Both the position numbers and the translations under genes were made by a program. A stretch of DNA of 64,000 nt from Acidithiobacillus marinus (GTDB lineage: Bacteria; Pseudomonadota; Gammaproteobacteria; Acidithiobacillales; Acidithiobacillaceae), in assembly GCF_002847505.1 (NCBI RefSeq), contig NZ_MXAV01000034.1, positions 186,001 through 250,000 of the forward strand, read 5' to 3'. Shown piece by piece: positions 40,720-64,000 of this stretch. The notes beneath the pieces were generated by a model. The model was not told where the DNA came from. It ran no database searches and saw only the letters and a list, made by a program, of their open reading frames with translations. Positions within the stretch are counted from its first letter, which is position 1. Each line of letters starts with the position of its first letter.

Positions 40720-40796
<77 letters not shown>

Positions 40797-40802
40797 ATTA
40801 AA

Positions 40803-41858
40803 TCAAGTGGTTACCAGCGTTTTGACCATGGTAGTTTTGTCGGGTTGTGCCATATTTGTACCATGCCCCTGTAACTGGCTGAGTACCCGATCAATGCGCG
40901 CTGAATCTTCTGCCAGGTGTTCTGGCGCCAGATGCGCGTAGCGCCGGACCATTTCTACCGACTCCCACCCGCCCATTTCCTGTAGCCTTTCCAGCGGTGT
41001 ACCCGCCTGCACATGCCAGGAAGCCCAAGTATGCCGAAGGTCATGCCAACGAAAATTATGAATATCCGCTTTCAGCAGGGCCTTTTTCCAGGCATGGGTG
41101 TTGGTCTGCTTCACAGGCTTTCTTCGAAAGGTAAATACCCGCACCGGGTGTTTGCCGGTTTGTCGCAGCACTATCGCCATGGCTGTAGCATTAAGGTTGA
41201 TACCAATGGGTTTGCGACATTTGGCCTCATCCGGGTGAACCCAGGCAACGTGCCGGATCAGGTCTACCTGCTCCCAGCACAGGCCAGTCACATTGGCCTG
41301 ACGCAAACCTGTTGCCAGCGAAAACTCGGCCATATCGCGCAGGTGAGCGGGTAAATAAGTCACCAGACACGCCGCCTCCTCTGGCCGCAGCCAACGAATG
41401 CGTTTTTTAGGCTCGGGATACTGGCGCAGTTTAGGCGCGTGGTACAGCCACCCCCATTCTATACAGCGGTTCAGGATGGCCCGGATCAGCGCCAAATGAC
41501 GATTAGCCGTAGAGGGACTGGTTTCGTTACGCTTTATTTCCAATACCTCCTGAATCCGAGATCGCGTCAGCTCGTCCAGAAAACAGCCCCGAAAGTAGGT
41601 CTGTAACCACGCTAATTCCGACATATCCTTGTTCAGACTTGCTTTGTCCTGTCGTTCGTCCAGCCATCGCAGCCCGGCATCGTCCCAAGTCACCCGTGGG
41701 AGGGCGCCTAATTCAATTTGCCGCCAGGCCTCGCCCTTGAGCCGGTCGTGCAGCTCCTGGGCTTGGCTTTTTTCCGTTGTTCCAGCCGAGCGTCTAATCC
41801 GCTGGCCGTCCGGCGCCGTAAAGTCGATCCAATAGGTTTTGCCACGTTTGTAAAGCAT
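40803..41858 (-). CDS. int: Tyrosine-type site-specific integrase
   Basis: 351 residues from ATG 41,858, chosen because GGAGG sits 7 nt upstream and MLYKRGKTYWIDF is the usual N-terminus; an extension to 41,906 is not supported. The N-terminal arm/core-binding region spans about 1-150. The catalytic residues are visible: Arg in LATGLRQANVTGL, His-Asp-Leu-Arg in HDLRHTWASWHVQAGTP, Trp/His in GGWESVEMVRRYAHL with the nucleophilic Tyr. It faces the tRNA, as expected for an integrase using the tRNA 3' end. Confidence 0.92.
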   Translation of the reverse strand: MLYKRGKTYWIDFTAPDGQRIRRSAGTTEKSQAQELHDRLKGEAWRQIELGALPRVTWDDAGLRWLDERQDKASLNKDMSELAWLQTYFRGCFLDELTRSRIQEVLEIKRNETSPSTANRHLALIRAILNRCIEWGWLYHAPKLRQYPEPKKRIRWLRPEEAACLVTYLPAHLRDMAEFSLATGLRQANVTGLCWEQVDLIRHVAWVHPDEAKCRKPIGINLNATAMAIVLRQTGKHPVRVFTFRRKPVKQTNTHAWKKALLKADIHNFRWHDLRHTWASWHVQAGTPLERLQEMGGWESVEMVRRYAHLAPEHLAEDSARIDRVLSQLQGHGTNMAQPDKTTMVKTLVTT

Positions 41859-42076
41859 TGAGGAACCTCCACATTCAAAGAAGAAAGAGAAGGCGCCACT
41901 TGCCAAGACTCAGGATAATGTTTGCGGAGATAGTCCGCAAGGGCGTCTTCCAGAAAAACCCAACGTTTGCCAGGCTTGGCGGCAGGAACCTGTCCCGCCT
42001 TGGCCCGCCGTCGCAGTTCTTCTTTGCTGAGGTGCAGAAACTGCGCAGCCGCTTCAAGATCTAGGGTTTTCATCAT
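41708..42076 (-). CDS. Excisionase/HTH_17-like DNA-binding protein
   Basis: 122 residues. MKTLDLEAAAQFLHLSKEELRRRAKAGQVPAAKPGKRWVFLEDAL is a helix-turn-helix of the excisionase type (MerR-like winged helix). The last 50 residues are low in family character and overlap the integrase start in another frame, so the natural protein may be shorter. Being just upstream of the integrase on the same strand suggests a recombination directionality factor. Confidence 0.7.
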   Translation of the reverse strand: MMKTLDLEAAAQFLHLSKEELRRRAKAGQVPAAKPGKRWVFLEDALADYLRKHYPESWQVAPSLSSLNVEVPQCFTNVAKPIGSTLRRRTASGLDARLEQRKKAKPRSCTTGSRARPGGKLN

Positions 42077-45663: not shown

Positions 45664-45938
45664 CTTAAAAAACTCCTGATGGCACGAAATGCACGCTGTA
45701 ACCAATTGTTTCTATGCTGTATGTTTCTTGTGAAATGAGGTTTTCCGATGTGCCCATTAAAGTCCAAACACGTGGAAACCACTTTGTAAAAAAAGAGAAA
45801 ATGGGCGATTTTAGTTGCTTAATGAGACGAAAAAAGGAATCAAGACGGAATATTCTAATCATTGACAAGTTTTGGTCAGAGCGGTCTGGGACCTGATGAT
45901 GTCATATGGCCAGCACATCACCAAAAAGGATCACAACA
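45664..45938. other. Intergenic, no feature recognised
   Basis: 275 bp between the IS110 remnant and the 242-residue unknown gene. An A/T-rich stretch, no supported gene or repeat. Confidence 0.3.
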
Positions 45939-46667
45939 ATGAACCATCAAACAGAAGCAAGAAGAAATCTTGAAGTCATGTTTCAAAGGCAGATGCTCTT
46001 TTATCAGCAGGTACAGGACATAATCTTTGACGATGCTCAGAAGAAAGCACAAGAGTTTTATGCAATCCAAAAAAAGCTATCACAGCAAGTCCATAAAGAT
46101 AATCAAAATAAAGACTGGAGCGACTTGAGCATCGCGGTTAGAAAAACTATAAACGGCAGTGTGACAGTGCATTGGCGCATTAGAATATGGTATAAATCAA
46201 CCAACAATAGCCGCAAAAACTTCAATGCAAGACATATCAGCAAGGCTAGGAACAGTCAAAATTACAAAAAGTCCCTAGCAAAACATGCTATAGCAGAAGA
46301 GTATGAAACCGTGATGAAACTTGAGGATCAGTTTGAGAGGTTACGAAAATTTTCGAAAACGGTACAAGATGCGCGGCGGCAAATGCTGAAAACTTCAAAA
46401 GAATTAGGATTTTCCATGAAAGATGAACCGTTCATAATAGGGCAAGAATCAGCATACGCTCTACATGAGCAAATCGGAAATCTAATGTTATTGCTTCGCC
46501 ACAAAATTTGGCCGACGCAAACGGACGCTGATCGGCAAGCTGACTTTGTACCTTTGATTGATCCGCATGCTGGTCTACCTCGTGATGTGGATACGAGGGA
46601 ACTGAATACTTCCCTACAAAAACTTGAGGAGGCGCATGTGGTGCTGGGTAACCTGCTCATAATCTGA
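45939..46667 (+). CDS. Hypothetical island protein, 242 residues (possible conjugation-related)
   Basis: ATG 45,939 has AAGGA about 8 nt upstream, better than the first in-frame codon at 45,906. The protein is basic and largely helical (LRKFSKTVQDARRQMLKTSKELGF). A stretch VHWRIRIWYK...ARHISKARNSQNYKKSLAKHA faintly recalls MobI-like conjugation proteins, but this is weak and untested. Codon use is AT-rich like its neighbours, unlike the core genome. Confidence 0.5.
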   Translation: MNHQTEARRNLEVMFQRQMLFYQQVQDIIFDDAQKKAQEFYAIQKKLSQQVHKDNQNKDWSDLSIAVRKTINGSVTVHWRIRIWYKSTNNSRKNFNARHISKARNSQNYKKSLAKHAIAEEYETVMKLEDQFERLRKFSKTVQDARRQMLKTSKELGFSMKDEPFIIGQESAYALHEQIGNLMLLLRHKIWPTQTDADRQADFVPLIDPHAGLPRDVDTRELNTSLQKLEEAHVVLGNLLII

Positions 46668-50662: not shown

Positions 50663-50734
50663 TGGTTACAGAATTGTTGAAGTTCAACAAAAGGCGTTGC
50701 GCAGGCTGTAAACGATTGATGGCAAAACAGGTCA

Positions 50735-50980
50735 ATCGCCTAAAGCACGCGCTTCTTCAAAAGCGTTGGATGGTGGAGAAGAAATCGTTGGCATCGGGGT
50801 GGGTACCTGACCACTGACCTTCATCAAGCCCTGAATCTCGGCATTCAACTGACTGTCGACCTGATCCAGCCGCCCCAGTGTGGCGACGGTCCGCTTTTTA
50901 ACCTTTCCGGCATCATCCCGGTAGGACTCGACAAGCTGGACATAGCGGCGGCTGCCAGAGGTGGTTATCTTCACATGCAT
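50735..50980 (-). pseudogene. IS1634-family transposase N-terminal fragment
   Basis: Begins MHVKITTSGSRRYVQLVESYRDDAGKVKKRTVATLGRLDQV, the IS1634 N-terminus. It ends at the right boundary of the IS110 element (near 50,734), so the IS110 insertion or a deletion removed the rest. Confidence 0.75.
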
Positions 50981-51350
50981 GCCGCCACTTTATCAGTGTT
51001 AATCGTCATGTAAATAAAAGTATCTATGAGATAAAGCGTGCCACCACAGAAGTTTGAGAAAATGGACGCTGAAACCCCTATGAATGCTGGGGTGGCGTTA
51101 CAAAATGGACGATTTTAGCCGATGAACTGTCGAACTCGGGGGAATGGATGAATATCGCTGCACGGGCAGGAGTTTTGTATCCTGCTGCCTTTCTGCTTAG
51201 ATTTGGACACGAGCACTATACATCCCTTATAAAACACTTGCATCCGCGAGGGCGCATGGTTAAAAAGCGAGACTTCTACACCGCGTTCTGTAATGCACTT
51301 CATAATGCTCTTACGCCCAGTAATTTTTGTAACGTAGTGCTGTGAACATG
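50981..51350. other. Intergenic stretch left of the 11-bp repeat array
   Basis: About 370 bp without a supported gene. GTGGCGTTACA at about 51,093 resembles the array unit 51,351-51,449. Confidence 0.3.
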
Positions 51351-51449
51351 CATTACAGTGGCATTACAGTGGCATTACAGTGGCATTACAGTGGCATTAC
51401 AGTGGCATTACAGTGGCATTACAGTGGCATTACAGTGGCGTTACATTCG
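51351..51449. repeat. Tandem array of 11-bp repeats (iteron-like)
   Basis: CATTACAGTGG is repeated perfectly eight times in direct head-to-tail order from 51,351 to 51,438, followed by a degenerate ninth unit to 51,449. The period of 11 bp is one helical turn, so any bound protein would sit on one face. The same region can be read as open frames in several phases, but there is no ribosome-binding site, so I treat it as non-coding. Confidence 0.9.
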
Positions 51450-51638
51450 GCTTTACTGCGGGTCATCCCTATATACCTTTGGGCCACCAAGGTTATCTCT
51501 TTGTCTTTGTTTCTGTCTACATAATTTGTCGGGAATTGCTACAATCACCGCAGTGATATTCTCCTGATAAGATGCATTATCGTTTTTTAGTTTTGCATAC
51601 GCTGAGTTTGATTTTTTTAGTCGGGAAACACATTGACT
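51450..51638. other. Intergenic, no feature recognised
   Basis: 190 bp between the repeat array and the convergent membrane-protein gene; no supported gene or repeat. Confidence 0.3.
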
Positions 51639-52367
51639 TCATTCATCCTTATTGGAGATATCCAGGTAGTAATCCAAAGTCAGCCCAAAAGCAAATGACC
51701 ACCCAGACAGAATAACGGTGAAAATCGTCAACACCACCATCACTGCTACCGATTCCCAAGACATAAAAACTCTGGCAATATATTCCGACAAGATCCAATA
51801 AAAGCCTAGTACTATACTTGTAATTATCACTAGCTTTGGGAAAGAAAGACGTTCAAATATCTCCGATGTCGAAATCATCATATCCATCGGAGTTATTTTC
51901 TTGTCCAAAAACATAATTGCTGATATAGCCGGCCAGAATAGAAAATACCCAAAAATAATTAGCAAAAAAGCCAAGGGAAGTTTATCGCAAAAACGCAACC
52001 ATATACTATGCGCACTACTGCCCGCACCGGGATACATCCAAGCTCTATAGTCCCGCAGACTGACCGTCCTAAATAGTCCAGCCGTCAACACAACTGGAAC
52101 TGAATAAAAAGCGAAGATGATGAGTATAGATCGTACATGTCGCCGGATTCTTATCCAAGTTTCAGCAAACGACCAGTGATAATATACCCTTGCGTAGAGA
52201 ATCCATAAAGTTGGGATCCAAATGAACAAAGCGGCAAAGAACAGAATAGAGGGCAAAAAAGTGACGGCTAGCAATGCCATGGTCATCAGTAAAAAACAAA
52301 AACTACCACGCCCAATTAGAGCAAAAGGCATGTACCAAAGGCGCATCTTTATATCACGGGATAGCAT
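51639..52367 (-). CDS. Multi-pass membrane protein of unknown function, 242 residues
   Basis: Hydrophobic segments at about residues 22-42, 45-60, 80-100, 135-155, 170-190 and 205-230 suggest five or six helices. No family motif is recognised. AT-rich. AAAGGAGAAAA just upstream supports the ATG at 52,367. Its role in the island is unknown. Confidence 0.55.
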   Translation of the reverse strand: MLSRDIKMRLWYMPFALIGRGSFCFLLMTMALLAVTFLPSILFFAALFIWIPTLWILYARVYYHWSFAETWIRIRRHVRSILIIFAFYSVPVVLTAGLFRTVSLRDYRAWMYPGAGSSAHSIWLRFCDKLPLAFLLIIFGYFLFWPAISAIMFLDKKITPMDMMISTSEIFERLSFPKLVIITSIVLGFYWILSEYIARVFMSWESVAVMVVLTIFTVILSGWSFAFGLTLDYYLDISNKDE

Positions 52368-53385: not shown

Positions 53386-53649
53386 ATGGATCATTATAAC
53401 GATCTAATTAAACAGATAATTGTTGAAATTATCAGACAGCTTGATTGCGGCAAAGACATCTCCCCACATCAACTGATGTTGAGCGAGCGTACTGCAGCAG
53501 CCGTATTGCAGGTTAAGCCTTCAACCTTACAAAATTGGCGTTGCACGCGCCGATATGACTTACGATATTTCAAGACAGGACGCTTAGTTAGATATCGTGT
53601 TGCGGACCTGGCGGAGTGGCTAGCCAAACGGCAAATCGGGGGGAGGTGA
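53386..53649 (+). CDS. Small helix-turn-helix (AlpA/HTH_17-like) regulator
   Basis: 87 residues from ATG 53,386, which has TGAGG 6 nt upstream; in-frame codons before it are not family-like. LMLSERTAAAVLQVKPSTLQNWRCTRRYDLRYFKTGRLVRYRVADLAEWL is a helix-turn-helix of the excisionase/AlpA type. Its position directly before the primase gene fits the regulator of P4-like elements. Confidence 0.75.
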   Translation: MDHYNDLIKQIIVEIIRQLDCGKDISPHQLMLSERTAAAVLQVKPSTLQNWRCTRRYDLRYFKTGRLVRYRVADLAEWLAKRQIGGR

Positions 53650-53727
53650 TAAAATGAGCCCTGACATCATCGCCATTATTCTCGCATTTTTTTCTTGTTC
53701 TCTCGGCCTCGTAGTATGGGGGACAAA

Positions 53728-54429
53728 ATGAGAGGCCTCCTTGATACCATGCGCTCGCGCGGTCTGAATCCCCCGAGCGATATCATCGACGGAAAAGTGG
53801 GCGAGTTCATACGCTTTTCGAGCAACGGGAAAGCCTCTGATAAATCAGGTTGGCTAAAGATTTTCCCGGGCCGCAAAGGGGCCGTTTTTGGCGATAAAAG
53901 GACAGGTCTAACAGCAGGCTGGCAGGCTGTCCGCGACCCTGACTTATCCGATACCGAACTTGCGGTACTTCTCAAACAACAGGCCAAAGCCCGTTGTGAA
54001 TCAGAGAAGCAGCGAGAAGCCGCCTACTTAAAGGCGGCGACGCGTATCAGGCAGGCGCTGGATAATTTTGATCCAGCCGAACCTGGTCATCCTTATCTTG
54101 CCAAAAAGAAAATCTCTCCTTATGGCGCGATGCAAGATCTCACTGGGAATTTAGTCATATCCGTGCGGGACATCTACGGAGAAATCCAATCGCTCCAGAA
54201 AATCAGCGCATCCGGACGCAAATCCTTCGCCAAGGGCGGCAGGATGAAAGGCGGTATGTATTGGCTCAGGGATCCCGGCGACGTGATCTATATTGCTGAA
54301 GGCTTTGGGACAGCGGCGAGCATTGCTGAGTCCATCTCTACAGGTGGCGTTGTCTGCTGTTTTTCGGCAGGGAACATGCTGACCACGGCGAAGGCTATCC
54401 GGGGAAAATACCCAAGGGCAGAGATCATC
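53728..54429 (+). pseudogene. Toprim primase-helicase, N-terminal part (interrupted)
   Basis: Residues 1-234 of a P4-alpha-type primase. ATG 53,728 follows GGGGG; GRKGAVFGDKRTG and, at the end, VIYIAEGFGTAASIAESIS begin a Toprim domain with the catalytic Glu. It is cut at GCAGAGATCATC (54,418-54,429), where the transposon 54,430-56,474 begins. The second part resumes in the same frame at 56,487, so excision would restore an 857-residue protein. Confidence 0.85.
54418..54429. repeat. Left 12-bp target-site duplication
   Basis: GCAGAGATCATC, repeated at 56,475-56,486. These are part of the primase coding sequence. Confidence 0.85.
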
Positions 54430-54521
54430 AGGGCCCTGTCAACCTTCCATCTAAGCTGCTGATGGAGTAGCACAAAGGGTTTTTCTGGACTTCTCAGGAT
54501 GAATGCGGTAACTTTTGCCGC

Positions 54522-55496
54522 ATGGAAGTCCCAACTCTCACCGAAAACCAGCAAGCCAGCCTGCACCGTGTTCAGGTGCGACCCATCCTGCCCACGGAGC
54601 GGGAACGCTGGAATACGCTGATGCAAACGTATCACTACCGGGGCTTTCGCACCTTGGCGGGCCGTAACCTGCGCTATGTGGCTACGCTCGATGGTCGCTG
54701 GGTAGCGTTACTGGGCTGGCATGCCGCCGCTTTTCAATGCCAGGCGCGGGATCGGTGGATCGGCTGGTCCTGGATCTTGCGCCGCCAGCGCTTGCATCTC
54801 ATCGCCAACAATGCCCGTTTTCTGATCCTGCCCGGAGAATCCTTCCCGAATCTGGCGTCCCGTATTCTGGCGCTGAACCTGCACAGGCTCTCTGCGGACT
54901 GGCAATCCGTCTATGGGCATCCCATCGTGCTGGCTGAGACCTTTGTGGAATCCCCCCGTTTTACCGGTGCCTGCTACCGGGCCGCCAACTGGGTGGATGT
55001 CGGCGGAACCAAGGGCTTCGCCCGCCGTCCCGGTGGTGGCTATGTCCACCACGGCCAACCTAAACGTCTTCTGCTCTTTCCTCTCCATCCACAGGCGCGG
55101 GCCTGGTTGGCCCAGCCGCAGCCCCAACTCGAATGGACCCATACCCCCATGCAAACCGTGACGTTGAGCGACCGCGCAAATGGAAGGCTTGCGCCAAATC
55201 TTTTTCCGCCTTCCCGATACCCGCAGCAAACTAGGCAAGCAGCATCCCCTCCCGGCCATCCTGACGGTGGCCGTGGCCGCTGTCCTGACGCGGGCCGAAA
55301 GTTATGCCGCCATCGCCGAGTGGGGCGGTCGCTTGACCCAGGCTCAATTGAAGCGCATCCGCGCCCGATTCGATCCCAAAACCAAGCGCTACCTCGCCCC
55401 CTCCGAACCGACCATCCGGCGCGTCTTGCAAGGGGCCGATGTGGAGGCGCTGGATGCGGCGATCGGCGCCTGGCTACTGGGTACGGCGGGCTTTGA
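54522..55496 (+). CDS. DUF4338 (DruA-like) domain protein within the transposon
   Basis: Residues about 1-220 form a DUF4338 domain: RVQVRPILPTERERWNTLMQTYHYRGFRTLAGRNLRYVAT, DRWIGWSW and NNARFLILPGESFPNLASRILALNLHRLSADWQSVYGHPI. DUF4338 is the domain of DruA, a component of the Druantia phage-defence system, and is also found with transposases. The C-terminal third runs through the ISAs1 start in another frame and is probably not natural; the family suggests this domain was once fused to the transposase and that one or two frameshifts now separate them. Confidence 0.7.
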   Translation: MEVPTLTENQQASLHRVQVRPILPTERERWNTLMQTYHYRGFRTLAGRNLRYVATLDGRWVALLGWHAAAFQCQARDRWIGWSWILRRQRLHLIANNARFLILPGESFPNLASRILALNLHRLSADWQSVYGHPIVLAETFVESPRFTGACYRAANWVDVGGTKGFARRPGGGYVHHGQPKRLLLFPLHPQARAWLAQPQPQLEWTHTPMQTVTLSDRANGRLAPNLFPPSRYPQQTRQAASPPGHPDGGRGRCPDAGRKLCRHRRVGRSLDPGSIEAHPRPIRSQNQALPRPLRTDHPARLARGRCGGAGCGDRRLATGYGGL

Positions 55497-56278
55497 AGCG
55501 GTGGCCGTCGATGGCAAAGTCCTCAAAGGGGCCGCACGCGCAGACGGCGCTCAGGTGCATCTGCTCAGCGCGTTCCTGCATGGACAGGGGGCCACCATCG
55601 CGCAAAAAGAAATCGCCCGGAAAACCAACGAAATTCCAGAACTGCGCAACCTGCTCCAGGACGTCAACATCGCGGGCAAGGTCGTCACCGCCGATGCCCT
55701 GCATACCCAGCGGGAGACCGCCCGCTTCCTCGTCGAAGACAAGAAAGCCGATTATCTCTTCACCGCCGTCAAAGGCAATCAACGAAAACTCCGCGACCGT
55801 CTGACGTGCCTCCCTTGGGGCGATTTTCCCCCTCAACGCTGAAACCACAGAGGTCGGGCATGGCCGCTTTGAATACCGCAAAATCATCGTCGCCACCCGG
55901 GCAACCGGCCTCCATTTTCCGCATGTCGGACAAGCTTTCCTGATCCAACGCTCCACCATCAACAGCAAAGAGGGCACGATTCGGGATGATTATGCCTTCG
56001 GACTCACCAGCCTGACCCCGGATCGTGCCACGCCCGAAAATCTGTTGGGCTTGGCCCGTGGTCACTGGGAAATTGAAAACCGGAACCATCATGTCCGCGA
56101 TGTGACTTTCCACGAGGACCTCTCCCAAGTCCGTACCCAGAACGGTCCCCATATGATGGCGACCTTGCGCGAACTGGCCATGAGCATTATGCGTCTCACT
56201 GGCGTCAAGAATATCGCCAAAGCGTGCCGGGATTTCGCCGCCAGCGCGCACAAAACGCTCCGCCAACTCGGATACTGA
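55180..56278 (+). pseudogene. ISAs1-family transposase, frameshifted
   Basis: LPDTRSKLGKQHPLPAILTVAVAAVLTRAESYAAIAEWGGRL and LKGAARADGAQVHLLSAFLHGQGATIAQKEIARKTNEIPELRNLL are ISAs1 sequence, in frame until a TGA at 55,840. The rest (AETTEVGHGRFEYRKIIVATRATG to HWEIENRNHHVRDVTFHEDLSQVRT and the terminal RQLGY) continues in the next frame. The shift lies at a run of five C (55,828-55,832); one extra C explains it, though programmed frameshifting or a sequencing error are not excluded. Restored length is about 366 residues. Confidence 0.8.
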
Positions 56279-56474
56279 GGCGCCACCACGGGGTTTACCT
56301 ATCCGAGAATAGCTCCGGAGGGCGAGCTGCGTCCGTCAGCCACCCCATTCACGATTCTGCACCCAAAATCGCCTGAAAATGCCGCATTTCCACCAACTAT
56401 AGCCCCTTCAAACCACCATTAAAATCAGTGGCGAAAACCTCTGCTACTATATCTGGCGAGCTTGACGGAGCCCT

Positions 56475-56486
56475 GCAGAGATCATC
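56475..56486. repeat. Right 12-bp target-site duplication
   Basis: GCAGAGATCATC, identical to 54,418-54,429. Confidence 0.85.
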
Positions 56487-58358
56487 CTTTGTGGCGACCA
56501 CGATGCTACAGGAGTGGGCCAGAAAGCAGCCAGAGTCGCCGCAGCAGCGGTGCATGGACAGGTAGCCATCCCAAACGTAGAGGGCGATGATTGGAGCGAT
56601 GCTTATGTGCGCGATGGCGCAAGCGCTACCCGAACAGCAATAGAGGCCGTCACAGTTGCGAATGCGGAAGAACTTGCGGGTGAATCTGTAGCAGAGGACG
56701 AGGCACAGCCTGGCGAGGTTGAGCGCGTACAGCTCATGCTTATTTCAGGGAAATGGCCGGAACTACTTCGTACTGTGATTGGGCGACTGACCGCTAAGCG
56801 CGAAGTTTTTGATTTTGGTGGGACATTGGTCCGGATCGACTCAAGAGGGAACACTTACCCGGCTTCAGCCCATGCGTTACTTGATCCCGTTGAGCGACTT
56901 TTCGAAATAAAACGTTACGATGGTCGCAGCGGTTCATGGGCTGCAAGTAAGCTACCCCTTGAATTTGCACAGCGCATACTTGCAGCGCGTGAGGCGTGGC
57001 AGTTCCCCGAGTTAAATGGGGTGACACGTCACAGAATCATGCGACCTGGTGGCACACTGCTTGATCGCCAAGGGTATGATGACCAGACGGGTCTTTACTT
57101 GCACCATCAAGGAGATTGGGCGCCCATTCCAAACGATATTCGCGAGGCAATTCAAACGCTCTGGTTCCCGCTTAGCCAAATGCCTTTTATCTCTCCAGCA
57201 GATGCAGGAGCGACTATGGCGCTGTTGTTGACGGCTGTACAACGTCCAATCCTGCCATTGTCTCCGATGTTTATCATTTCAGCGCCAACATTTGGTTCTG
57301 GGAAAACGCATATAGGCATTGTCGCCAAACTACTGGCGGGGGACGACAAATCCGTTACAAGCCTCGGTGCAAGCCCTGAAGAACAGCAAAAACGACTATT
57401 CTCCACCTTGCTTGAGGGAACACCGGCTGTGCTGTGGGACAACCTCAGCGGTACTCTGGGCGGCGACGACCTAGCCGCAGTCATTACCTCTGAAAGATAC
57501 TCGTCCCGATTACTGGGCCAAAGTGCCACTGCAAAAATCCCAACAAGGATGCTACTTATGGCGACTGGGATAAACCTGATCCCTGCTGCTGATTTAACCA
57601 GGCGCACGCTGACAATCCGCGTTGACCCGAAGGTTGAAAGGGCTGAGCTTCGTCAATTCAATATTGACCCGACCGAGTGGACACAAGTGCATCTTGGTGC
57701 GATGCAGGCGGCGGCCATCGCCATTTTGAAATATGCACGGCCACATAAGGAGGGCAGTTTGGGCAGCTTTAACGCCTGGAACGATTCTGTGCGCGCCGCA
57801 GTTTTAACCTTAATTGAGGACGGTCTCGCACCCTGTCCAATGGCTGACCCACTGGACGTTGTGAGTAGAGAACGCGCTACTGACCCAGAAGCCGAAGACC
57901 TCAGCGCCATTCTGCAAGGTTGGCACGCGCTGATCGGTGAACGGTTTATCACACTGAAGGACTTGGTAGAAAAAGCTACCTTCAACACTGATGCCGAGCT
58001 TCTGGGGGCTTTGGACGCAGTTGCTGGAAACAGCAAAGGTTCCATAAATATCAGGCGGCTAGGCAAATACTTGCGACGCCACGAAAATAGGATTGTTGAA
58101 GGTCTTCAAGTAATGAAAGGCCGGGAGACACATCTTGGGGTGGCATGGAAAGTCACTAATCAGGGTTTGCAGGGTTTTAAGGGTATGTTTCATTCCCAGC
58201 GTGAAAACTGTCAAACAAATGGTAATACAACTGACAGTTTATATATGGCCGGTGAAAATAACCCAGCAAACCCAGCAAACCCAAATGTTCAGGTTTGCCC
58301 CTCCTGCTCTGGCGAAGGGTGCAAATGGTGTCATGACACGGGAATACTCACATCATGA
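56487..58358 (+). pseudogene. Toprim primase-helicase, C-terminal part (interrupted)
   Basis: Continues the Toprim domain in frame (LCGDHDATGVGQKAARVAAA with the DHD metal-binding aspartates), then a large linker and a superfamily 3/AAA ATPase with Walker A ISAPTFGSGKTHIGIVAKLL near 57,270 and Walker B VLWDNLSGTLGG. The end has a zinc-ribbon-like CPSCSGEGCKWC. An internal GTG at 56,514 could allow re-initiation of a helicase-only product. In P4-type elements this protein replicates the element. Confidence 0.85.
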
Positions 58359-59351: not shown

Positions 59352-59963
59352 ATGGGTAGTGATAGATACAGCCTGTCATTTACAACGGGCAGTCTATTTC
59401 ACCGTGAGTCGCTGGAGCTGGTAAAGCTGTATTTTGATCTCGGTGACTGGAACGCAGTTCGTACAAGTGTTATTGCAAATAATGTACTGCAGACCAGAAC
59501 GGTAAGTACACTCAAGCGAATCTGCCGCGAGGTTATCTCTCGGCTCAGGACCCTGAGTCCGGTTGAACTTAAATTCTTGGTAGATGGCAGTCGTCAAGAG
59601 CAGGTCTATCTTCTCTGGCTTGCTGTTTGCCGCCAGTACAGATTTATCGCTGACTTTGCCATCGAAGTGCTTCATGAGCGTTATATCTCAATGAAAGGTG
59701 ATCTGAACTTTGATGATTTTGATGCTTTCTTCAACCGTAAAGCTGAATGGCATTTGGAGCTGGATAAGATCACCCCAGCAACCCGAAGCAAATTACGGCA
59801 GGTCTTATTTAAGATGCTTCGCGAGGCCGATTTCTTGACGGCCAACAACACGATCCACGCTGCCATGCTCAGCCCAAAACTATTGGAGCTGATCCATCAA
59901 GGCAACCGCAGGGAGATTTTGCACTTCCCTGTATTTGAATCAGAACTAAAAGGGATGGCGTAG
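59352..59963 (+). CDS. brxA: BREX protein BrxA
   Basis: 203 residues with the DUF1819 signature (DRYSLSFTTGSLFHRESLELVKLYFDLGDWNAVR). BrxA is a small DNA-binding BREX component whose role is still unclear. First structural gene of the operon; its stop overlaps the brxB start by one base. Confidence 0.88.
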   Translation: MGSDRYSLSFTTGSLFHRESLELVKLYFDLGDWNAVRTSVIANNVLQTRTVSTLKRICREVISRLRTLSPVELKFLVDGSRQEQVYLLWLAVCRQYRFIADFAIEVLHERYISMKGDLNFDDFDAFFNRKAEWHLELDKITPATRSKLRQVLFKMLREADFLTANNTIHAAMLSPKLLELIHQGNRREILHFPVFESELKGMA

Positions 59964-60574
59964 TGTCAGCAGATATGGCCAGAAGGCCAATACCGGAAAG
60001 ATTTCAGCATCTTTTTGCTGTGATCTCAGGCCAACGCTTTCTCAAGAAGCAAGGTCTTGGTAATGAGATCCCCTTTTTCATCTGCCCATTCAAGCCGGAA
60101 GATTCTGTTGAAGTCGAGCGGCAAAAGCTGAAGCTGGTCAATCGTCTTGAGCAGGCCGGTGTCCGGATTCTGGAGATCAATCTGTATGATCTTTCGATAG
60201 AAATTCTCAAAGAGCGTGGCATATGGAACCAGATTATCGAAATGGAGGCTACTGTCTCCAAAGAGCAGCTCAAGGAGTTGTTGCAGGGCGTGCTGGACCC
60301 CGAAGCGCATCTTGTTCCGGCCATTGCGGCCAAGCTGGCCATTACGGAATTCGAGGTTCTCTTTCTGTCCGGCGTTGGTGAGGTGTTCCCCTACATCCGC
60401 TCACACAACGTGTTGAACAATTTGCAGAGCACAGCGAAAGATAAGCCGACTGTCCTATTTTTCCCGGGAAACTACACCCACTCCCTGCAGACTGGAGCAT
60501 CGCTGGATCTCTTTGAGAGAATGCATGACGATAAATATTATCGAGCATTCAATATTTTTCACTGTGAAGTCTGA
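59963..60574 (+). CDS. brxB: BREX protein BrxB
   Basis: 203 residues with the DUF1788 pattern (FAVISGQRFLKKQGLGNEIPFFICPF, LEQAGVRILEINLYDLSIEILKERGIW and VGEVFPYIRSHNVLNNLQS). Starts at a GTG overlapping the brxA TAG, with AAAAGGGA upstream. Needed for type 1 BREX methylation and defence in the described systems. Confidence 0.9.
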   Translation: MSADMARRPIPERFQHLFAVISGQRFLKKQGLGNEIPFFICPFKPEDSVEVERQKLKLVNRLEQAGVRILEINLYDLSIEILKERGIWNQIIEMEATVSKEQLKELLQGVLDPEAHLVPAIAAKLAITEFEVLFLSGVGEVFPYIRSHNVLNNLQSTAKDKPTVLFFPGNYTHSLQTGASLDLFERMHDDKYYRAFNIFHCEV

Positions 60575-60600
60575 ATTTAATCAGAAGAGCCGAGGGAAGG

Positions 60601-63600
60601 ATGATGACTCTTAAGACCATTTTCAACAAGCCAGTTGATCGCCCGATTGAAGGGGTCATCAAAGCTGACGATGAAGCCAGTCTGTCCCGAGAGATTGAAG
60701 AGTACGTACTGACCAACGAAGTCGAGAAGCGGCTTGAGTCCTTTCTGGATGCCTACAACAACTATGAAGGTGCCAACGGCGTTTGGGTTTCCGGCTTCTT
60801 CGGGTCCGGCAAATCCCACCTGTTGAAGATGCTGGCGCTCTTGCTTGAGAACCGGCTGATCGAAGGAGCCTCGGCTCTTGATCTGTTCCTGCCCAAGTGC
60901 GGCGATAACGAAATCCTGCGCGGTGATCTCAAGCGAGCCGTCGCCATCCCTTCTAAAAGCATTCTATTCAACATCGACCAGAAAGCGGATGTCATCAGCA
61001 AGACCCAAATGGATGCGCTCCTCGCTGTCTTCGTCAAGGTCTTTGACGAGATGTGTGGTTACTACGGCAAACAGGGGCACATCGCCCGGTTTGAGCGCGA
61101 CCTCGACAGTCGTGGCCTCTACGAACAGTTCCAATCGGCCTACGAAACGACAGCGGGCAGAACATGGCAAAAGGGCCGCGAGCAGTCTTTGCTAGAGACC
61201 AAAAACATTGCCAAAGCCTATGCTCAGGTAGCTGGTGGTGACGAGACGCAGGCCTCGGGGATACTCGATAAATACCGCAGTGAATACCGTGTCTCCATTG
61301 AAGATTTTGCTGAGCAGGTGCAAGCGTATATTGAGCGGCAATCGAGCCAAGAGGGAAATAAAGCATTCCGCCTGAACTTTTTTATCGACGAGGTCGGTCA
61401 GTACATCGCCGAAAATGTCAAGCTGATGACCAACCTCCAGACCATCGCCGAGAGCTTGGCCACCAAATGCCGAGGCCGCGCATGGATCATCGTGACCGCC
61501 CAGGAGGACATGGGGACGGTCGTCGGCGAGATGAGCAAACAGCAAAGTAACGACTTCTCGAAAATTCAGGCGCGGTTTGCCAATCGCATGAAGCTGAGCA
61601 GTGCCGACGTGGCGGAGGTTATCCAGAAACGTCTGCTTATGAAGAACGAAGAAGGCGTGCGTCTTCTGTCGGACATTTATCACGCGCAGTCCAACAATTT
61701 TAAGACTCTGTTTGACTTTGCCGACGGCTCGCAGACCTACCGGAACTATCAGGACCGGGACCACTTCATTCACAGCTATCCGTTTATTCCGTACCAGTTT
61801 GCGCTGTTTCAGTCGGCCATTCAGAATCTATCGCTGCATAGCGCCTTTGAGGGCAAGCACAGTTCGGTGGGCGAACGCTCCATGCTGGGCGTGTTCCAGC
61901 AGGTGGCGATCCAGATCGGGGGTTATGAAATCGGGCGGCTTGCGACCTTCGACCTGATGTTTGAAGGCATTCGCACCGCGCTGAAATCCAACATCCAGCG
62001 AGCCATCATCCAGGCAGAAAACCATCTGGATGGTCCTTTCGCCATTCGGCTGTTGAAGACGCTCTTTTTGGTCAAATACGTCAAGGAGTTCAAGCCGACG
62101 CTTCGCAACCTGTGCGTCCTGATGCTGGACGGCTTCAATCAGGATCTGCCCGTGTTACGGAAACGGGTCGAAGAAGCCCTCAATCTTTTGGAACAACAGA
62201 CTTACGTGCAGCGCAATGGCGCACTCTACGAATACCTGACCGACGAGGAAAAAGACGTCGAGCAGGAAATCAAGAACACCGAGGTGGAGTCATCCGAAGT
62301 TGCCGCCGAGCTTGAGAAGATCATTTTCGACTACGTCATCAAGCAGCGGAAGATTCGCTTCGACGAGAATGGCCAGGACTACCCATTCTCCAGAAAGCTT
62401 GATGATCGGCTGCACGGGCGGGAGTACGAGCTGGCTATCCATGTCATCAGTCCGTTCCATGAAAACGCCGAAAGCGAGTCCATCCTGCAGATGCAGAGCA
62501 TGGGCCGGGACGAACTACTGGTTCTGATGCCTGCGGATGAACGCCTCGTTCGCGATATCCTCATGTACAAGCGGACGGAGAAATACATCCGCCAGAATAT
62601 CTCGATCACGCAACAGGAGTCAGTTAAACGCATTCTGAATGACAAGAGCTTCCAGAACCAGGAACGGTCTGCTGAGCTACAGCAGCGCGTTCAAAGCCTG
62701 ATTGGCAAGGCCAAATTGTTCGTGGCAGGAGCCGACATAGAAATAGGTTCCGAGGATGCCCAGACCCGGGTGCTGCGCGGATTCCAGGATCTCATCACCC
62801 GTGCCTATCCAAACCTTCGCATGCTGCGCGGCGTCCCCTATACGGAAGAAATGATCAGGACGGTTCTGCGTAATAAGGGTGCAACACTCTTGGGTAATGA
62901 TACCACCTCCCTGGCCGAGTCTGAGCAGGAGCTGTTGGCGTTCATTCAGAGCAATAACCGGGGTGGCGTGCGTACTACGCTGAAAAACCTGTTGGAAAAA
63001 TTCGAGCGCAAACCCTACGGTTGGTACTACGCCGCTATTCTTTGCACCCTGGCCAGCCTCTGCGCTCGCGGCAAGGTCGAAGTCCGCGCTGACGGGAACC
63101 TGCTGGAAGAAGACGAACTGGAACGGGCGCTGCGCAACACGCATGGTCATGGCAATGTGGTGCTGGAGCCCCAGGTCGAATTTACCGCATCGCAGGTTCG
63201 CGTTCTCAAGGTGTTCTTTGAGGATTTCTTCGATGCTCCGCCTGCTGCCGGCGAAGCGAAGGCGCTTGGCAAGGAGACTGACACTGCGCTCCAAGATCTG
63301 ACGCATCAGCTCACCCTGCTAGCGGCCCAGGCATCCCAATATCCGTTCCAGAATGCACTGACACCGGTACTTGAGAAGCTCAAGGAGCTAACCGGCAAGC
63401 CCTATGCCTGGTATCTGACCGAACTCACCCGCCAGGAAGACGCGTTGCTCGACATGAAGGAAAGCGTCATCGATCCTGTCCGCAAATTCATGAGCGGGCC
63501 GCAGAAAGGCATTTTCGATAACGCCCGCCAGTTCGTTCAAAGCCAGGACTCCAACTTCGCCTACATCGAAGAAGATGTGGGAAGTGGAAAACTGGAAGTG

Positions 63601-64000
63601 AGAGAGGGCGATCCTGAAGATGTTTCTTCAGGCGTCTTGAGGGCGATATTGGCCGATCCAGAATGCTTCAAGGGTAACCGAATGCAGCAGGTCAAGACGC
63701 AAGTCGAAACCCTGCAGGAGAAGATCACGGCCCAGATCGAGGCCGAGATCACTACGGCCAAGGAGACAGTCGCCGCTCTTAAAGGCCGACTCTGCGGCAT
63801 GGCCGAATTCGTCGCACTGAACGACGGGCAGCAAGAGCAGATCACCCGTCCGTTCAACGAATTCAACGCAGACCTGGAGCGACAGAAGCTGATTGCGGTG
63901 GTCCGCGAAAACCTACGTCGGTTTGAGGAAAACGACTACCAGCGACTGCTTTCGCAGATGACATCCTGGGCGCAACCGGCTCCAACATCTGAGCCTGCTC
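60601..64000 (+). CDS. brxC: BREX ATPase BrxC (incomplete, runs past window end)
   Basis: The frame is open from ATG 60,601 to the end, about 1133 residues visible. An N-terminal AAA-type P-loop reads VSGFFGSGKSHLLKMLALLL (Walker A, near residue 68), followed by FIDEVGQYI (Walker B region). Long helical segments make up the rest (LQEKITAQIEAEITTAKETVAALKGRL near the visible end). GAGG 6 nt upstream supports the start; a second ATG follows immediately. In type 1 BREX this gene is followed by pglX, pglZ and brxL, which would lie beyond the window. Confidence 0.92.
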   Translation, partial: MMTLKTIFNKPVDRPIEGVIKADDEASLSREIEEYVLTNEVEKRLESFLDAYNNYEGANGVWVSGFFGSGKSHLLKMLALLLENRLIEGASALDLFLPKCGDNEILRGDLKRAVAIPSKSILFNIDQKADVISKTQMDALLAVFVKVFDEMCGYYGKQGHIARFERDLDSRGLYEQFQSAYETTAGRTWQKGREQSLLETKNIAKAYAQVAGGDETQASGILDKYRSEYRVSIEDFAEQVQAYIERQSSQEGNKAFRLNFFIDEVGQYIAENVKLMTNLQTIAESLATKCRGRAWIIVTAQEDMGTVVGEMSKQQSNDFSKIQARFANRMKLSSADVAEVIQKRLLMKNEEGVRLLSDIYHAQSNNFKTLFDFADGSQTYRNYQDRDHFIHSYPFIPYQFALFQSAIQNLSLHSAFEGKHSSVGERSMLGVFQQVAIQIGGYEIGRLATFDLMFEGIRTALKSNIQRAIIQAENHLDGPFAIRLLKTLFLVKYVKEFKPTLRNLCVLMLDGFNQDLPVLRKRVEEALNLLEQQTYVQRNGALYEYLTDEEKDVEQEIKNTEVESSEVAAELEKIIFDYVIKQRKIRFDENGQDYPFSRKLDDRLHGREYELAIHVISPFHENAESESILQMQSMGRDELLVLMPADERLVRDILMYKRTEKYIRQNISITQQESVKRILNDKSFQNQERSAELQQRVQSLIGKAKLFVAGADIEIGSEDAQTRVLRGFQDLITRAYPNLRMLRGVPYTEEMIRTVLRNKGATLLGNDTTSLAESEQELLAFIQSNNRGGVRTTLKNLLEKFERKPYGWYYAAILCTLASLCARGKVEVRADGNLLEEDELERALRNTHGHGNVVLEPQVEFTASQVRVLKVFFEDFFDAPPAAGEAKALGKETDTALQDLTHQLTLLAAQASQYPFQNALTPVLEKLKELTGKPYAWYLTELTRQEDALLDMKESVIDPVRKFMSGPQKGIFDNARQFVQSQDSNFAYIEEDVGSGKLEVREGDPEDVSSGVLRAILADPECFKGNRMQQVKTQVETLQEKITAQIEAEITTAKETVAALKGRLCGMAEFVALNDGQQEQITRPFNEFNADLERQKLIAVVRENLRRFEENDYQRLLSQMTSWAQPAPTSEPA

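Follow-up and report, generated by a model that had tools for sequence, protein, structure and literature searches.

The eight exact 11-bp tandem copies in the window (the whole 64-kb stretch of DNA that was analysed) are neither a product of chance nor a lone minisatellite. The chances are judged to be about even that the array represents the enlarged portion of a conserved cis-acting site (51288-51477) carried by an integrative element of the MobI type, and that this site is, or was, a replication origin, the TGTAAYGC boxes of which are putative initiator-binding iterons. Judged from its sequence, the array appears to work like an iteron site; it is placed in no named family.

Tandem array and the conserved palindromic site

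The array copies of CATTACAGTGG, which reads TGTAATGCCAC on the minus strand, were verified at the positions given in Table 1, and the eight exact repeats reported in the initial annotation are real; the array had there been extended to 51449 because a ninth, diverged copy (CGTTACATTCG, 8/11 match to CATTACAGTGG) occupies 51439-51449. A further 8/11 copy (CTTTACTGCGG) is found at 51451, its register shifted by one base. More than three tandem copies were found at this place only within the window; the 200-bp maximum of TGTAAYG boxes was 11 in the window and no more than 2 in 100 shuffled sequences. The exact double unit (22-mer) was found nowhere else in the own genome, in 95 relatives, in viral contigs or in genome contigs, and the exact array is therefore private to the source genome. 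None of the plus-strand frames is interrupted by a stop across the array (51342-51567), and all three read the 11-residue period HYSGITVALQW.

Table 1. Features of the site, its surroundings and the host island (window positions).
Feature	Positions	Strand	Remarks
tRNA-Met	40720-40796		with the integrase, left end of the island
Tyrosine integrase	40803-41906	-	adjoins tRNA-Met; left end of the island
mobI, MobI-family mobilisation gene	45906-46667	+	PF19456
Dispersed IS, remnant and end	50735-51143	.	contains GTGGCGTTACA; 83-89% repeats in relatives; transposase-like ORF
Palindrome, left arm CTGTAATGCA	51288-51297	+	exact inverted repeat of 51349-51358
Core between the arms	51298-51348	+	TGTAACG box at 51328; resembles the G005 core
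Palindrome, right arm TGCATTACAG	51349-51358	+	overlaps the first array copy
Eight exact 11-bp tandem copies of CATTACAGTGG	51351-51438	+	iteron-like array
Diverged copies CGTTACATTCG and CTTTACTGCGG, conserved right flank GGGTCAT..ATATACC	51439-51477	+	common to G005 L032:5648-5700, opposite strand
Predicted membrane protein gene	51639-52367	-	kept in three MobI elements; no Pfam family
HTH_17 / excisionase-like DNA-binding protein	53386-53646	+	first gene of the replication module
TOPRIM-type primase gene, 5' part	53695-54462	+	IS-split
IS: DruA-like ORF and ISAs1-like transposase	54428-56475	+	interrupts the primase/helicase gene
Primase/helicase module, 3' part	56514-58358	+	
BREX brxA, brxB, brxC	59352-64000	+	island cargo; brxC runs past the window end

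The array extends a palindromic site built of TGTAAYGC boxes, two of which point right and the remainder left, around a short palindrome; the arms of the inverted repeat are 10 bp long and exact, and the array begins inside the right arm. The same pair of arms is present in G005, a sister species of the same genus with a related element (MobI 89%, membrane protein 80%), where the palindrome is located upstream of the HTH gene and encloses a similar core. Once G005 was turned to put its HTH gene on the same side, both flanks were collinear with those of the window: on the left AATGCAC..TAATGC, on the right GTTACATTC..GGGTCAT..ATATACC; between these collinear flanks the centre of the palindrome (about 20 bp) is inverted (window 51288-51358, L032:5692-5759). 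The similarity score of the right flank was reached in 0/500 shuffles and that of the core in 2/500; the remaining intergenic sequence of the window and G005 gave no detectable similarity. Measured against dinucleotide shuffles, the stability of the palindrome is z = -3.5 in G005 and weaker in the window (z = -1.6). A search of 188 genomes with a model built from both sites returned the window and G005 loci only, and these two are the known orthologous sites; the fifteen-mer TTTTTGTAACGTAGT had the palindrome context in none of its 57 matches in viral contigs. The array was also considered as the remnant of an initiator pseudogene, and this was rejected, the site having no similarity to initiators.

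Between the core and the right flank, the box is present in one copy in G005 and in eight in the window (one genome per species was compared); the array therefore reflects a changed number of copies at a site that is orthologous and conserved, as in a minisatellite (VNTR), and it bears out the earlier expectation that a perfect array of this kind would be prone to such change. As in an iteron-type oriV, the array is one of near-identical direct repeats within a conserved noncoding site.

On the left, GTGGCGTTACA near 51,093, which had been taken for a related single motif, turned out to belong to a dispersed IS end: it falls within 50980-51143, repeated at 83-89% in the source genome and relatives and adjoined by an N-terminal transposase-like ORF (50732-50980). 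It is thus not part of the array by descent. A 12-nt inverted repeat (51150/51550) was considered as a pair of MITE ends and discarded as being at chance level by estimate; the 65-aa ORF on the left side of the array gave no homologues.

The host element and the clusters of a third MobI element

The array sits in an integrative element that starts at tRNA-Met. Among 57 relatives, MobI was found only in G000, G005 and G004, and the membrane protein is likewise confined to these three. The right flank of the array has about 62% AT vs 46% for the window; no DnaA box with fewer than 2 mismatches was found in 51000-52000, and Rfam returned tRNAs only. The Rep or partition protein for which the initial annotation had recommended a search was not recognised in the island: Pfam searches of the main genes and of 53 further island ORFs revealed neither a Rep family nor relatives of ParM/ParR, ParA/ParB or StbA, though distant StbA relatives could escape. 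The IS that splits the primase gene has a 98% identical copy in G004, and another copy is located at the end of contig C28. The genus is probably Acidithiobacillus, with which an IS110 copy on an A. caldus plasmid (75%) is in line.

Two large clusters of TGTAAYG boxes were found in the 118 kb read of G004, and no others (at least 3 boxes within 100 bp) were found there. Cluster 1 (L033:11985-12222; G004:C1:1639985-1640222) consists of 14 boxes in both orientations around a stretch of 70% AT and lies inside a 730-aa DUF1376 ORF (L033:10618-12810), a phage-type putative initiator, the domain being matched at E = 9e-6, slightly under the curated cut-off. The DUF1376 gene is followed on the same strand by a DUF6475 gene and then by the homologue of the window's membrane protein gene, which the end of the DUF6475 gene overlaps. 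By its sequence, L033:11985-12222 is a candidate replication origin. Cluster 2 is a 12-bp array of 13 boxes, located 8 kb from mobI in the 3'-terminal part of a gene for a phosphoesterase and ahead of a beta-clamp-like gene; here the (GTAACGCCTGAT)n array (L411:15272-15434) encodes the VTPDVTPDV tail of the SbcD-like phosphoesterase. The pooled clusters of the window and G004 gave the consensus TGTAAYGC (32 sites, last position 97% C). Shuffled sequence had at most 2 boxes in any stretch of equal size.

That the array is a passive minisatellite, formed by slippage in a decaying, IS-ridden stretch and functionless beyond its parent site, is possible but somewhat doubtful. The exact identity of the copies, which points to a recent expansion, the single copy at the orthologous site of G005, the location with an IS end on one side and a gene's 3' end on the other, and the splitting of the primase gene by an IS are all consistent with it; the adjoining core and flank, however, are conserved, and the G004 element has independently arranged clusters of the same box, for which neutral slippage alone hardly accounts.

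The box in viral contigs, phages and other gene families

Viral contigs with three spaced CRTTACA boxes numbered 60 (10 bp), 37 (11 bp) and 74 (12 bp), and 4 were obtained with a scrambled motif. Since spacings of 10 and 12 bp are no rarer than 11 bp and the scrambled motif is rare, what counts is the motif, not a period of exactly 11 bp; a special preference for 11-bp spacing was ruled out. In many viral contigs the cluster falls within the coding sequence of an NVT- or VTP-rich linker. The overlapping ORFs match above all replication-initiation, replisome-organiser and DnaD-like families (best family 10/79, a figure that is no exact fraction, the family tallies overlapping); none of these replication families was among the top ones for 45 control ORFs that surround a lone match due to chance. 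Enterococcus phage phiEf11 has a GTAACG cluster in its replisome organiser, beside an AT-rich tract.

The box is absent upstream of most other genes of the HTH_17 family, a few loci having different repeats, and TGTAAYG was accordingly rejected as a general upstream feature of these genes; at L037 (G008), a further member of the HTH_17 family is preceded, ~420-680 bp upstream, by clustered CGTCTACCGG/CCGGTAGACG repeats. The TGTAAYG box is likewise absent from other DUF1376 genes of the genus and of named phages, and phage proteins closely related to the DUF1376 protein of G004 are without it, so that specificity differs within families. Given its absence from most HTH_17 and other DUF1376 genes, the box cannot be assigned to any single protein family; DUF1376, which has no match in the whole source genome, was ruled out as its universal owner. 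E. coli ydaU (Rac prophage DUF1376, L413:11480-11600) has linker repeats TGTTCAAAC/TGTTTGAACA of different sequence at the same position. In Pedosphaera sp. RYN_620, an element with 4-6 CGTTACA boxes is dispersed in many copies and may be the end of a transposon (loci L153, L162, L177, L178, L184, L185, L188, L190, L206, L207, L215, L219, L221).

With considerable reserve, it is suggested that TGTAAYG may be a widely shared iteron: phage-type initiators of differing structure (DUF1376, Phage_rep_org_N, DnaD-like, O-like), together with integrative elements, would use clusters of the box as origin recognition sequence, often hidden in the coding sequence of the initiator linker (NVT/VTP repeats).

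Comparison with known systems and the proposed origin

The oriV of SGI1 consists of four 17-bp GC-rich iterons and a DnaA box with an adjacent RepA_C initiator gene (PMC7433901). Like it, the window array consists of direct repeats in noncoding DNA close to the replication genes of an integrative mobilisable element; unlike it, the repeat is 11 bp long, neither a good DnaA box nor a recognised Rep is present, and only the HTH_17 protein and the broken primase/helicase stand in the place of an adjacent cognate Rep gene. For want of a good DnaA box and of a recognised Rep, the array was not classed as an SGI1-type iteron origin. A lambda-type origin lies inside the initiator gene O (PMC7466680), and this arrangement was found in G004, the boxes and the AT-rich stretch being inside the putative initiator gene (DUF1376); the window differs from it in that the site is intergenic, DUF1376 is absent from the genome and the iteron sequence is different. 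The iteron-like arrangement read from the array by the initial annotation thus stands in part: each of the three MobI elements found has clustered boxes, which in G004 lie within a putative initiator gene around an AT-rich stretch, whereas the window's island has no recognised Rep and its primase is split.

Two partition or transfer systems have comparable repeats. The parC of plasmid R1 (ParR, 11-bp repeats; PMC9426499, PMC4949242) likewise has direct repeats with a period of one helical turn; in contrast to it, no parM and parR were found beside the window repeats or elsewhere in the island, and the boxes are also inverted around the palindrome. The stbDRs of R388 (StbA; PMC3098194), which have the sequence TTGCATCAT and stand in two groups of five at the stbABC promoter, are short direct repeats carried by a mobile element with a period of 11 bp (9 bp + 2 bp), as in the window; unlike R388, the window's island has no StbA-type protein recognised by Pfam, which distant relatives could escape, with the repeats at its promoter.

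A partition or transfer-accessory site of the parC or stbDRs kind, bound by a segregation or mobilisation protein instead of an initiator, is for these reasons considered unlikely. Its one-turn spacing and the co-occurrence of MobI and box clusters in the same three elements agree with such a site; no relative of the corresponding proteins was recognised in the island genes listed above, the best-organised cluster (G004) is inside a DUF1376 gene, and the array is not positioned beside a promoter of the par type.

Direct and inverted boxes also serve regulators, and repressor or activator sites of a neighbouring gene were considered. An operator is very improbable: the nearest gene, that of the membrane protein, ends towards the array, which is therefore not at its promoter, and the HTH gene starts 1.9 kb away. 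A coding repeat of the above 11-residue period can hardly be credited, for although ORFs of 58-69 aa span the array, the unit itself accounts for the lack of stops in every frame, the orthologous site is not so repeated, and no relative was found.

Returning to the preferred reading, that of an origin with iterons, an initiator-type protein would bind each box, one per helical turn, and would open the adjoining AT-richer DNA to the primase and helicase whose genes lie downstream. The excised element would then replicate, or once have replicated, from this site, which would feed the adjacent HTH_17-primase-helicase module. For this reading speak the core and right flank conserved in G005, the box clusters of G004, and the preference of box clusters for replication genes in viral contigs, with the replisome organiser of phiEf11 as a named case; against it stand the lack of a known Rep, DUF1376 or partition protein in the island, the want of a good DnaA box in 51000-52000, the flank's AT content of only about 62%, the absence of the box from most other HTH_17 genes and from other DUF1376 genes, and the small number (two) of orthologous sites. 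The tandem expansion of one box, from 1 to 8 copies, probably took place by replication slippage. As the primase gene is IS-split, the origin may no longer fire and is perhaps a relic; loss of firing could also relax the constraint on copy number.

If this reading is right, the site would offer a handle on replication, after excision, of the defence-carrying integrative elements of the genus, and TGTAAYGC would be a named iteron open to testing. The box would also mark likely origins inside the initiator genes of many uncharacterised phages, the origins of which would become readable from sequence.
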